Shown piece by piece: positions 3,523 through 7,807 of a stretch of 64,000 nt of DNA (its first letter is position 1; every line of letters starts with the position of its first letter). The notes below the pieces were generated by a model that saw nothing but the letters and a program-made list of their open reading frames with translations, was not told the DNA's origin and did not search any database. A program made the position numbers and the translations under genes. The stretch comes from Bradyrhizobium sp. SRL28. Its GTDB lineage: Bacteria; Pseudomonadota; Alphaproteobacteria; Rhizobiales; Xanthobacteraceae. The DNA lies in NCBI RefSeq assembly GCF_018596315.1, contig NZ_JAHEAG010000004.1, forward strand, positions 62,001 through 126,000. The letters are read 5' to 3'.

Positions 3523-4284
3523 ATGGATCGGCCGGACCAAACCACCCATTTTGGCTTCAGGGACGTGCCCCTGGGCGACAAGCAGACGCTGGTGAACGAC
3601 GTATTTCACAGCGTGGCGTCCCGCTACGACCTGATGAACGACCTGATGTCGGGGGGCCTGCACCGGGTCTGGAAAGACATCATGATCAATGCGCTGAACC
3701 CGCCGAAGGGCGATGCGCCGTTTGCGCTGCTCGACGTCGCCGGCGGCACCGGCGATATCGCCTTCCGCGCGGCCAAGGCGGCGGGCGCGGGCTTTCATGC
3801 CACCGTCTGCGACATCAATACCGATATGCTCGAAGTCGGCCACAATCGCGCGCTGGCGCATCATCTCGACCAGCAGGTTTCCTTTGTCGAGGGTAATGCC
3901 GAGGCCTTGACGTTTCCGGACCGCTCCTTCGACGCCTACACCATTGCATTCGGCATCCGTAACGTGCCGCGGATCGATGCCGCGCTGCGAGAAGCCTATC
4001 GCGTCCTGCGGCCCGGCAGCCGATTTTTGTGCCTGGAGTTCTCCGCCGTCGACGTGCCCGGACTGGACAAGCTCTACGACTTCTTCTCGTTCAAGGTGAT
4101 TCCGCCGCTCGGCCGCGCGGTCACGGGCGATGCGGAATCCTATCGGTATCTTGTTGAATCGATCCGGAAATTCCCCCGGCCCAATGTATTTGCCGAGATG
4201 ATCCGCGACGCCGGCTTTTCGCGGGTGAAGTGGGAGAGCCTCTCCGGCGGCATCGTGGCGTTGCATTCGGGCTGGCGTTTGTGA
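3523..4284 (+). CDS. ubiE: Ubiquinone/menaquinone C-methyltransferase UbiE
   Basis: SAM-dependent C-methyltransferase of the ubiquinone ring; 253 residues, full length. The early segment [17 protein letters not shown] and the SAM-binding motif [17 protein letters not shown] (about residues 68-84) are family signatures. Later [24 protein letters not shown] and [20 protein letters not shown] complete the UbiE pattern. It is divergent from mutM. Its TGA overlaps the GTG start of ubiB by four bases (GTGA), so the two quinone genes are translationally coupled. Confidence 0.96.
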
Positions 4285-5855
4285 TTTCTGCGGCGACCCA
4301 CATCGCGCGGCTGGTCCGCGCCGCTTACGTGTTCGCACGCGAGGGCGTGTTCGGTGTTGTCGATCCGAGTCTGGTGCCGCCACCTGGGCAGCTCGCACTG
4401 CGGCTGGCGCGGCTGATCGAACGGCCCGGCGCCAAATCCGGCCCGCGTTTGTCGCGCGCGCTGACGCGGCTCGGCCCCGCTTACCTCAAGCTCGGCCAGT
4501 TTCTGGCGACGCGACCCGACGTCGTCGGCGTCGCAATGGCGCGCGATCTGGAGGCCCTGCAGGACCGGCTGCCGCCATTTTCGCAAGCCGAGGCGGAGGT
4601 CGTCATCGCCCTGTCGCTGGAACGCCCTCTGGCAAAAGCCTTTGTCAGCCTCGGGCCGCCGGTCGCCGCCGCTTCCATCGCGCAGGTGCATCGCGCCGAG
4701 ATCGAGCGCGACGGCGTACGCCAACAGGTCGCGGTGAAAGTGCTCCGGCCCAACGTCGCCTCACGTTTCCGCCGCGATCTCTCTGATTTCTTCTTTGTCG
4801 CGCACAATGCCGAAGCGCATTCGGCCGAAGCGCGGCGGCTGCGGCTGATCGAGGTCATCAACACGATGTCGCGCTCGGTCGCGATGGAGATGGACCTGCG
4901 GCTGGAGGCGGCCGCGTTGTCCGAGATGGCGGAGAACACAAGCGACGATCCGGATTTCCGCGTGCCGACCGTCGACTGGGACCGCACCACCCACAACGTG
5001 CTGACGATGGAGTGGATCGACGGCATCGCGCTGAACGACCATGCGCGCCTCGCAGCGTCGCATGTCGACCTGCCCGATCTCGGGCGCAAGGTGATCCAGA
5101 GTTTTTTGCGCCACGCGCTGCGCGACGGCTTCTTCCATGCCGATATGCATCCCGGCAATCTGTTTCTCGACGATGCCGGCCGGCTGGTCGCCGTCGATTT
5201 CGGCATCATGGGCCGGCTCGGCCTGAAGGAACGGCGTTTCCTTGCCGAGATTCTGCTGGGCTTCATCACGCGCGACTACCGCCGCGTGGCGGAAGTTCAT
5301 TTCGAGGCCGGCTACGTGCCGGGCCATCACTCGGTGGAGAATTTCGCGCAAGCCATCCGCGCCATCGGCGAGCCGATCCATAATCGCACCGCCGAAGAAA
5401 TCTCGATGGCGAAGCTGTTGACGCTTCTCCTTGAGGTCACCGGCCTGTTCGACATGCAGACGCGGCCCGAACTGATCCTGCTGCAAAAGACCATGGTGGT
5501 GGTCGAAGGCGTGGCGCGCGGCTTCGATCCCAAGCTCGATATCTGGAAGGTCGCCGATCCCGTGGTGCGCGAATGGATCGAGCGCAATCTCGGTCCCTTG
5601 GGCCGGGTTCAGGGCGCGATGACCGGCGCGGGCGAACTCGGCCGCGTGGCGACGAGCCTGCCGGCAATCGCCTCGCGGGCGGTTGCGGTGATCGAGAACA
5701 TGGAGAAGATGACCCGGGAGGGCGTGACGCTGTCGCCGGAGTCGATTGCCGCCTTGGGCCGCGCCGAAGGCCGCAAGAGCCGCTGGCGGACGGTGGCGCT
5801 CTGGATCATCGCGGCGACCTTTATTGGAATTCTGGTCGCCATCCGGCAGCTATGA
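4281..5855 (+). CDS. ubiB: Ubiquinone biosynthesis protein UbiB (ABC1/ADCK kinase-like)
   Basis: Atypical protein-kinase-like ATPase needed for ubiquinone synthesis; 524 residues. The signature KxGQ appears in [17 protein letters not shown]. The alanine-rich loop that replaces a normal P-loop is [11 protein letters not shown], and the catalytic and Mg sites are [12 protein letters not shown] and [10 protein letters not shown]. The C-terminus ends in one hydrophobic membrane anchor ([17 protein letters not shown]). I chose the GTG at 4281 because it forms a 4-base overlap with the ubiE stop; a longer frame from 4230 sits inside ubiE. Confidence 0.95.
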
Positions 5856-5912
5856 TTGCAATGACAGCATGGATTTGCTATCATTGACAGCAGTCCTTGC
5901 TGGAGGCCGTCC

Positions 5913-7352
5913 ATGGCCAGCCTGACCATCCGAAAACTCGACGACGCCATCAAGTCCTACCTGCGGCTCCGCTCGGCCCAGAACGGCCGTTCAGTCGAGG
6001 AGGAGGTTCGCGTCATCCTGCGCGAATATTGCGAGGGTAGCCCGGCGCCAACAGCTTCGTTGACCTCGCCGTCCGCTCCGGCTGAACGGCCTGTTGCCGA
6101 ACGTGCAAACGCCGCTGGCCAGGCCAGCGTTACCCTGATCATCGGTGGTGGTATCGCCGCCTTCAAATCGATGGAACTGATCCGGCGGCTGAAGGAGCGG
6201 CACATTGACGTCCGCTGTGTGCTGACCAAGGCCGCGCAGCAATTCGTCACGCCGCTGTCCGCCAGCGCGCTGTCGCATGAGCGCGTCTATACCGATCTGT
6301 TCGACCCCGGCAGCGAATTCGACGCCGGTCACATCCGCCTCGCCCGCGAATGCGATCTGATTGTGGTGGCGCCGGCGACCGCCGATCTGATGGCGAAGAT
6401 GGCGCAGGGCCACGCCGACGATCTCGCCAGCGCGATCCTGCTGGCGGCAGACCGCCCGATCCTGCTGGCGCCTGCGATGAACCCCCTGATGTGGAACAAC
6501 GCCGCCACCCGCCGCAACGTGATGCAGCTTCGGCGCGACGGCATCCACATGATCGGCCCCAGCGCCGGCGAAATGGCTGAAGCCAACGAGGCCGGCATCG
6601 GGCGGATGTCGGAGGCGATCGAAATCGCAGCCGCCGTTGTCGACATTCTCCGCCCGCCGCGACCGCGTCCGCTCGCGGGCAAGCGCGTGCTGATCACGGC
6701 GGGACCGACGCATGAGGCGATCGACCCCGTGCGCTATATCGCCAACCGCTCCTCCGGCAAGCAGGGTTTTGCCATCGCCGCCGCCGCGCAGGCCGCGGCC
6801 GCCGATGTCACGCTGGTTTCCGGCCCGGTCGAATTGCGCGATCCCCCAGGCGTCACCGTCATCCGGGTGGAGTCGGCACGCGACATGCTGCATCGGGTGG
6901 AGGCTGCCTTGCCGGCCGATATCGCGATCTTCGCAGCCGCCGTGGCCGATTGGCGCGTCGCCAATGAAGGCGAGCAGAAGCTGAAGAAGACCGCTGCCGG
7001 CATGCCGCCGCTGCAACTGGTGGAAAACCCCGACATTCTCGCGACGATCTCGAAGCTGAAAGACAGGCGCCCGCCGCTGGTGATCGGATTTGCCGCCGAG
7101 ACCGAGCATCTCATCGACAACGCCAAGGCCAAGATCGCGCGCAAGGGCTGCGACTGGATCGTCGCCAATGACGTTTCGCCCGCACTGGGGGTGATGGGCG
7201 GCGACCGCAACACCGTTCATCTGCTGACGCGCGACGGCACGGATATCGGCGTCGACGACATCAAGGTAGATTCCTGGCCAGTGATGACCAAAGAGCAGGT
7301 CGCGACCGAACTGGTGGCGAAGATTGCGAAAACCGTGGAGAAGAATTCGTGA
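5913..7352 (+). CDS. coaBC: Bifunctional CoaBC with N-terminal ribbon-helix-helix domain
   Basis: 479 residues. The main body is phosphopantothenoylcysteine decarboxylase (CoaC) plus phosphopantothenate-cysteine ligase (CoaB), two steps of coenzyme A synthesis. CoaC begins near residue 72 ([20 protein letters not shown]) and has [11 protein letters not shown]. CoaB begins near residue 255 with [20 protein letters not shown] and NRSSGKQG. Residues 1-42 ([19 protein letters not shown], then [13 protein letters not shown]) do not belong to CoaBC. They match the FitA/VapB ribbon-helix-helix antitoxin fold and join through a Pro/Ala/Ser linker. The ATG at 5913 has GGAGG upstream. Its stop overlaps the dut start. 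Confidence 0.95.
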
Positions 7353-7807
7353 GCGCGACCGTAAAAGTCGAAATCCGCCAACTGCCGCATGGCGAAGGTC
7401 TCGCGCTGCCGGCCTATCAGAGCGCAGACGCTGCCGGACTCGACCTGCTGGCCGCAGTTCCCGCGGACACGCCGCTGATCCTGCCCCCTGGAAGATATGT
7501 GATGGTGCCAACCGGGCTGACGATCGCACTGCCGTCAGGCTATGAGGCGCAGGTGCGGCCACGTTCCGGCCTTGCCGCCAAGCATGGCGTTACCGTCTTG
7601 AATTCGCCGGGCACGGTGGATGCGGATTACCGCGGCGAGGTCAACGTCCTCTTGATCAATCATGGCGATACGCCGTTCCCGATCCGGCGCGGCGAGCGCA
7701 TCGCGCAGATGGTGATCGCGCCGGTCGTGCAGGCGCAACTGGTTCCGGTGGTGTCGCTTTCAGCAACCGATCGCGGCAGTGGCGGTTTCGGCTCGACTGG
7801 ACGCTGA
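7349..7807 (+). CDS. dut: Deoxyuridine 5'-triphosphate nucleotidohydrolase
   Basis: Trimeric dUTPase that hydrolyses dUTP to dUMP, keeping uracil out of DNA and feeding dTMP synthesis; 152 residues, typical. All five motifs are visible: [46 protein letters not shown] and the C-terminal arm [11 protein letters not shown]. The GTG start at 7349 overlaps the coaBC TGA by four bases. The coaBC-dut pairing is common in bacteria. Confidence 0.96.

Follow-up and report, generated by a model that had tools for sequence, protein, structure and literature searches.

The coaBC gene of Bradyrhizobium sp. SRL28 encodes an essential enzyme of coenzyme A (CoA) synthesis that begins with an antitoxin-like ribbon-helix-helix (RHH) domain, and the locus raises the question of where this head came from and what it does there. 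In this study, we analyzed the gene within a window of 64,000 nucleotides (the whole stretch of DNA presented above, to which all coordinates refer) and compared it with its relatives. From sequence comparison, we consider it likely that the head derives from a fitA-fitB toxin-antitoxin (TA) module and that CoaBC acts as the autorepressor of coaBC-dut through boxes in the promoter. That the enzyme controls its own gene is, on the same evidence, very probable.

Domain Organization of the Protein

The gene lies between ubiB and dut, and its parts and neighbors are as follows:

4230 to 5855, + strand: ubiB, upstream (TIGR01982, 518.6 bits); box 1 of the candidate operator opens with its TGA stop (5853-5855)
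5902 to 5906, + strand: Shine-Dalgarno-like GGAGG, read from the sequence, preceding the ATG at 5913
5913 to 7352, + strand: ORF of the RHH-CoaBC gene, ATG start, 479 amino acids
5913 to 6038, + strand: RHH head, residues 1-42 (PF22513 match within it)
6039 to 6125, + strand: variable linker, residues 43-71 (pLDDT below 50 at residues 43-68; dN/dS 0.43 over residues 42-71)
6126 to 6647, + strand: CoaC part (FMN-dependent phosphopantothenoylcysteine decarboxylase), residues 72-245 (PF02441, 101.8 bits)
6675 to 7337, + strand: CoaB part (phosphopantothenate-cysteine ligase), residues 255-475 (PF04127, 236.4 bits; Foldseek)
7349 to 7807, + strand: dut (dUTPase), downstream (NF001862, 197.9 bits), GTG start

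The preliminary description of this DNA had read residues 1-42 as a FitA/VapB-like DNA-binding domain joined by a linker to an otherwise complete CoaBC, and profile searches bore out both halves of that reading. The Pfam family FitA-like_RHH (PF22513) matched residues 2-38 with 56.5 bits in the whole protein, and the isolated head scored 62 bits (residues 1-70) or 63.2 bits (residues 1-45), the cut-off being 27. The equivalog TIGR00521 (coaBC_dfp) extended over residues 72-471 and both catalytic domains, with 386.9 bits and a cut-off of 219.7. The RHH, Flavoprotein and DFP domains were the only ones above the Pfam cut-offs in the whole protein, and the NCBIfam scan of residues 1-70 gave no match. 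Gonococcal FitA in the PDB was matched weakly by the single head sequence (E 0.012) and at E 2e-8 by a profile built from 22 fused heads.

The AlphaFold monomer model (mean pLDDT 80.3) matched the solved structures of E. coli CoaB (1u7z) and M. smegmatis CoaBC (6tgv) in Foldseek. The linker, modelled as disordered at residues 43-68, is probably so in the protein. Residues 2-7 were modelled as helix and not as strand, with low confidence (pLDDT about 61); in RHH dimers the equivalent stretch is a strand. Judged by these matches, the protein is a bifunctional CoaBC carrying a FitA-type RHH domain on a flexible linker.

Downstream, the GTG start of dut overlaps the coaBC stop by four bases (GTGA). 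Control of coaBC should therefore reach the dUTPase, and dut is probably co-regulated with coaBC.

Operator-Like Boxes in the coaBC Leader

The leader of the fused gene contains a conserved motif of paired 8-bp boxes, TGNNNNCA-N-TGNNNNCA, and in SRL28 positions 5853-5892 read TGATTGCA-A-TGACAGCA-tggatt-TGCTATCA-T-TGACAGCA. The features of the leader are the following:

5853 to 5869, + strand: candidate operator pair 1, TGATTGCA-A-TGACAGCA, proposed by sequence
5876 to 5892, + strand: candidate operator pair 2, TGCTATCA-T-TGACAGCA, 23 bp downstream of pair 1
5856 to 5884, + strand: sigma-70-like promoter, TTGCAA - 17 bp - TATCAT, inside the operator

The first box of pair 2, TGCTATCA, is identical to what we take to be the operator half-site of gonococcal FitAB. 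Because ubiB ends in this locus with the same TGA that opens box 1, the conservation of that part is not independent. The promoter was the only sigma-70-like site found in the scan of 5700-6000 (mean of shuffles 0.0). Operator-like sites are thus present in the promoter of the gene as conserved sequence, and a promoter lying inside the boxes is the layout expected for a repressor site. Across 137 leaders, the strict promoter rule overlapped the boxes in 24, and promoter-like sites occurred in 3.8% of shuffled leaders. No known RNA or riboswitch was matched in Rfam at the gathering threshold between 5600 and 6100.

All 110 fused loci compared (L009-L118) had paired boxes no more than 150 bp from the start (shuffled mean 0.47 loci). 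For L039-L118, 102 pairs were counted in 12,000 bp of leader sequence and none in the remaining 490,913 bp of the loci, these 80 loci being homologous and not independent. Since many of the sampled genomes are close kin, counts by genus are the fairer ones. Within 150 bp, 23 of the 27 genus representatives with a fusion had the pairs (shuffled mean 0.15 loci), and none of the 17 unfused ones did. Within 300 bp, the figures were 25/27 for fused representatives versus 0/15 for unfused ones without a TA module (Fisher p 1.4e-9). In L127 and L139 the boxes stand farther upstream, beyond 150 bp and just past ubiB, and in L141 and L146 they are one letter off the pattern. Outside the host family, box pairs preceded nine of ten fusions, fused L224 being the exception. 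Of 58 distances between successive pairs, 49 were 22 or 23 bp, eight were 9 bp and one was 44 bp; a spacing of 22-23 bp is about two helical turns.

An apparent repeat insertion was seen between the operator and the start of the fused coaBC in L127/L194 and L139/L195.

Targets of the Motif in the Genome

A stricter 17-mer, TGMWDKCAWTGMHWKCA, was derived from the boxes of the SRL28 locus. Searched exactly in the 9.65-Mb genome, it occurred only at the two coaBC sites and at no other target (reversed control, 0). Allowing one mismatch, 18 further places were obtained versus three for the reversed control. Among 60 related genomes, 41 had a match (32/36 in the genus, SRL28 included, and 9/24 in other families), compared with 3/60 for the reversed 17-mer. 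Sequence search revealed no other relative of the head above noise in the SRL28 genome.

The 17-mer also recurred before other genes. Of 14 loci examined, 11 (L273-L282, L286), from ten Bradyrhizobium genomes, proved to be homologous DNA. There the 17-mer falls in a divergent promoter that serves two genes, one for a BoxR-like regulator (HTH joined to a shikimate-kinase-like part) and one resembling a CoA ligase gene, both named by eye from the translations and not by HMM. At this promoter, the 17-mer is more likely the operator of that regulator itself, and the site was not counted as a target of RHH-CoaBC, being one homologous site repeated across genomes.

The presence of a similar 17-mer there, in ten genomes other than that of SRL28, implies that another protein may like the motif. 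Together with the fact that RHH folds also dimerise, it lends something to the view that the head serves as a tether or an oligomerisation aid, without a role on DNA, and that a different regulator binds the boxes. Against this, the boxes accompany either the fusion or fitA: they were absent within 300 bp of all 42 unfused loci whose available flank showed no TA module, and the same boxes precede fitA in L168, L184, L227 and L228. Furthermore, the fused head was the only FitA-like RHH found in the SRL28 genome among the 150 of 231 first-look candidates that were scored. We therefore regard a head without DNA binding as unlikely, and favor the head as the protein that recognizes the boxes.

Distribution of the Fusion and Selection on the Head

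The architecture of CoaBC was compared among relatives at increasing distance. One genome was taken for each of 45 genera of Xanthobacteraceae other than Bradyrhizobium, and all 45 gave a CoaBC match, of which 27 were fused, 17 unfused and one cut by a contig end. In one representative counted as fused (L162, genome G020), RHH-CoaBC is split by a frame break, which reflects either sequencing error or decay. In a wider search of the family, 386 of 391 genomes matched, and all among the matches listed began at query residue 1 or 2; likewise, the best 80 of 565 loci by similarity, mostly Bradyrhizobium, all matched from residue 1. Two strains classified as B. diazoefficiens (L071 and L103) are among the carriers of the fusion. 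In the order (397 genomes), at least 10 of 376 genomes outside the family were fused among the matches listed, nine in family f24 and one in family f16; weaker fusions may score below those matches, and rows starting at residues 5-35, some of them with stops, were set aside. In the class (241 genomes), 96 matched at E 1e-20 or better, and among these no fusion was found outside the order, SRL28 alone matching from residue 1.

By a simple counting method applied to 600 pairs (85-97% identical) of the 110 fused loci, the linker had the highest dN/dS, 0.431, followed by the head with 0.167, CoaB with 0.081 and CoaC with 0.075. Ten positions of the head were invariant in the 27 fused rows (M1, R7, L9, R20, A22, S27, E29, E31, R33 and L36), with a linker that varies. 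The head is under purifying selection and is a working domain, under weaker constraint than the enzyme.

These data bear on the possibility that the head is neutral baggage, the fossil of a fused antitoxin. A single deletion can create such a fusion, and the SRL28 locus has neither a toxin gene nor a toxin-binding segment, as a fossil might. On the other hand, the selection on the head, the residues kept invariant across genera and the retention of the presumed operator indicate that it is not just a fossil, a reading that we hold to be very unlikely. The preliminary description had offered a moonlighting regulator and a fossil antitoxin as alternatives; our results favor the two together, a regulator of antitoxin origin, and not the fossil by itself.

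Toxin-Antitoxin Relatives and Origin of the Fusion

At the SRL28 locus, the adjacent genes (ubiE, ubiB and dut) include no PIN toxin gene, as had been noticed before. In several unfused relatives, FitB-type PIN genes occupy the same spot. A fitA gene was found between ubiB and an unfused coaBC in eight loci (L168, L184, L185, L191, L192, L227, L228 and L234), and in each of them an in-frame search confirmed ubiB upstream. Of these, L185, L191, L192 and L234 lack the box pairs that the other four possess. The FitA and PIN domains were confirmed by Pfam in L168, L192 and L228.

The eight loci differ in how much of the module they keep. In L168, the order is ubiB, boxes (TGACAGCA-T-TGATTGCA-A-TGCAATCA), fitA, full-length fitB and coaBC. 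In the same genus, L191 has fitA with a fitB remnant consisting of two ends only, the second recognized by eye, and four other members have neither fitA nor fitB. L192, L184 and L185, all of one genus, carry fitA and full-length fitB, with box pairs in L184 alone. In other families, L228 shows ubiB, boxes, fitA, fitB and coaBC, and L234 has fitA and fitB without box pairs. In family f24, L227 presents boxes, two tandem fitA-like genes and a different PIN-like gene (assigned by eye) between ubiB and coaBC. Within a single genus of that family, this TA form coexists with fused heads of two dissimilar kinds (L218 and L221). By eye, the linker of L218 is similar to part of the FitA tail of L227 and is possibly the trace of a lost toxin-binding segment.

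On a tree of the CoaBC core (92 rows), fused and unfused genomes interleave. The fused label requires at least six changes on well-supported branches, with a bootstrap not quite settled, which implies several gains or losses of the fusion and leaves the direction of each change unfixed. In a tree of the 40-residue head, which is too short and too sparsely sampled to be relied on, the heads of coaBC loci were nearer to each other than to four background FitA heads; the selection pattern had missed five of nine background and three of 40 fused heads. The earlier suggestion that an antitoxin fused after losing its toxin agrees with these relatives, which keep fitA-fitB or, in L191, fitA beside the remains of fitB. 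We conclude that a FitA antitoxin was probably captured by CoaBC, and probably on more than one occasion.

A PIN partner is usual for FitA-type heads, and the fused head might accordingly still be the antitoxin to a toxin encoded elsewhere in the genome. VapB binds its PIN toxin via the C-terminal region, and the FitAB contact is similar (PMC3384007). In the SRL28 protein, no such segment was recognized, and the toxin-contacting region is replaced by the variable linker at residues 43-71, so that a surviving antitoxin function appears highly improbable.

Translation Start

An ATG or GTG occupied residue 1 in all 110 fused loci. GGAGG preceded the start in 67 of them, and ten had none of the Shine-Dalgarno-like words tested. 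Within residues 43-75, no in-frame ATG, GTG or TTG was found in 61 loci and at least one in the other 49; the SRL28 linker, read by eye, has a single in-frame TTG at residue 50. That the head is an artefact of gene calling and CoaBC truly starts near residue 70, a challenge which the preliminary description had itself raised, could draw on the variable linker, on that TTG and on those 49 loci, but it is hardly conceivable in view of the 61 loci offering no such start, of the purifying selection on the RHH frame and of the Shine-Dalgarno-like site in most loci, and it was rejected on the start-codon counts and the selection on the head.

Proposed Autoregulation and Its Precedents

Taking the head to be a DNA-binding domain of FitA origin, the following course can be proposed. 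The ancestor would have had a fitA-fitB (VapBC-type) module between ubiB and coaBC, as suggested by relatives with the whole or the broken module. The toxin would then have been lost and the DNA-binding half of the antitoxin fused to the next gene, leaving the operator in place. At present, RHH dimers on the CoaBC oligomer would bind the TGNNNNCA boxes over the coaBC promoter, repressing coaBC and the overlapping dut when the enzyme is abundant. The oligomer may span from one box pair to another 22-23 bp away, in the way that FitB joins FitA dimers on DNA. The simplest outcome would be that the abundance of the enzyme sets its own synthesis, and CoA thioesters, or the occupancy of the enzyme by substrate, may gate DNA binding.

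Published systems supply precedents for these steps. CoaBC is described as a dodecamer with a CoaC core whose CoaB activity is inhibited by CoA and acyl-CoAs (PMC7794376). FitA binds DNA through its RHH fold, and FitB promotes the binding by stabilising the assembly (PMC3920265). FitAB contacts six of the eight positions in each repeat half (PMC6118392), which would fit boxes of 8 bp. A further precedent is trifunctional PutA, a flavoenzyme with an RHH head that acts as an autogenous repressor (PMC5293562). It is from the dodecamer, FitA-FitB and PutA that we propose heads on one CoaBC particle acting as box-binding RHH dimers.

Regulators of this kind, enzymes that repress their own gene through a DNA-binding head, are already known. 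BirA and NadR are enzymes with DNA-binding heads which sense their own pathway and regulate transcription; their heads are of the helix-turn-helix type and their pathways are different from that of CoaBC. To our knowledge, no TA ancestry has been described for heads of the BirA or NadR type.

The closest likeness, compared by description, is PutA, in which an N-terminal RHH is carried by a bifunctional flavoenzyme presumed to repress its own gene by binding the control region (PMC5293562). PutA belongs to proline catabolism, whereas RHH-CoaBC belongs to CoA synthesis and lacks the PRODH and P5CDH domains of PutA in the Pfam scan. Moreover, RHH-CoaBC has a FitA-type head whose TA relatives occur at the same locus, its exact target in the genome is one locus, and no membrane switch is implied. 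With FitAB and VapBC it shares the FitA-like RHH (PF22513), the promoter boxes and, in relatives, complete fitA-fitB operons at the same spot. It differs from them in having neither an adjacent toxin gene nor a recognized toxin-binding tail, its partner being CoaBC in cis.

We found no open-access paper on a CoaBC or phosphopantothenoylcysteine decarboxylase with a ribbon-helix-helix or antitoxin domain, nor any report among open-access papers of a CoA-synthesis enzyme-repressor built from a TA gene with apparent intermediates. The accessible parts of PMC2701414, PMC4803016 and PMC3325190 do not mention an RHH-CoaBC fusion.

RHH-CoaBC appears to be a CoA-synthesis enzyme that represses its own gene and has a single exact target site in the genome; if true, it would be the second RHH-headed flavoenzyme repressor, alongside PutA. 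The locus also displays apparent intermediates of a route that leads from a toxin-antitoxin pair through a broken one to a fused enzyme, and by which addiction modules could turn into housekeeping regulators. More tentatively, TA modules standing before an essential metabolic gene may have been domesticated repeatedly within this bacterial order: the toxin deleted, the antitoxin fused, and the enzyme oligomer bridging the operator in place of the toxin, to give a self-regulated, CoA-responsive enzyme-repressor. With similar reserve, we suggest that the same locus might shift between TA, broken TA and fusion, and in one case within one genus.

The CoaC Flap

The flap of CoaC (residues 221-232, positions 6573-6608) has Ala at residue 224, the residue that we take to align with the catalytic flap Cys158 of E. 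coli CoaBC, E. coli itself lying outside the alignment. In the one alignment used, Cys occupied this position in none of 42 fused rows, none of five TA-bearing rows and two of 45 unfused rows (L232 and L240). A link between the change of the flap Cys and the fusion was rejected, as Cys is also missing in 43/45 unfused relatives. Compared with the CoaBC of M. smegmatis and E. coli, both catalytic parts are alike, as matched to the solved structures; the RHH head and the linker are extra in the SRL28 protein, and its equivalent of the flap Cys158 is not Cys.
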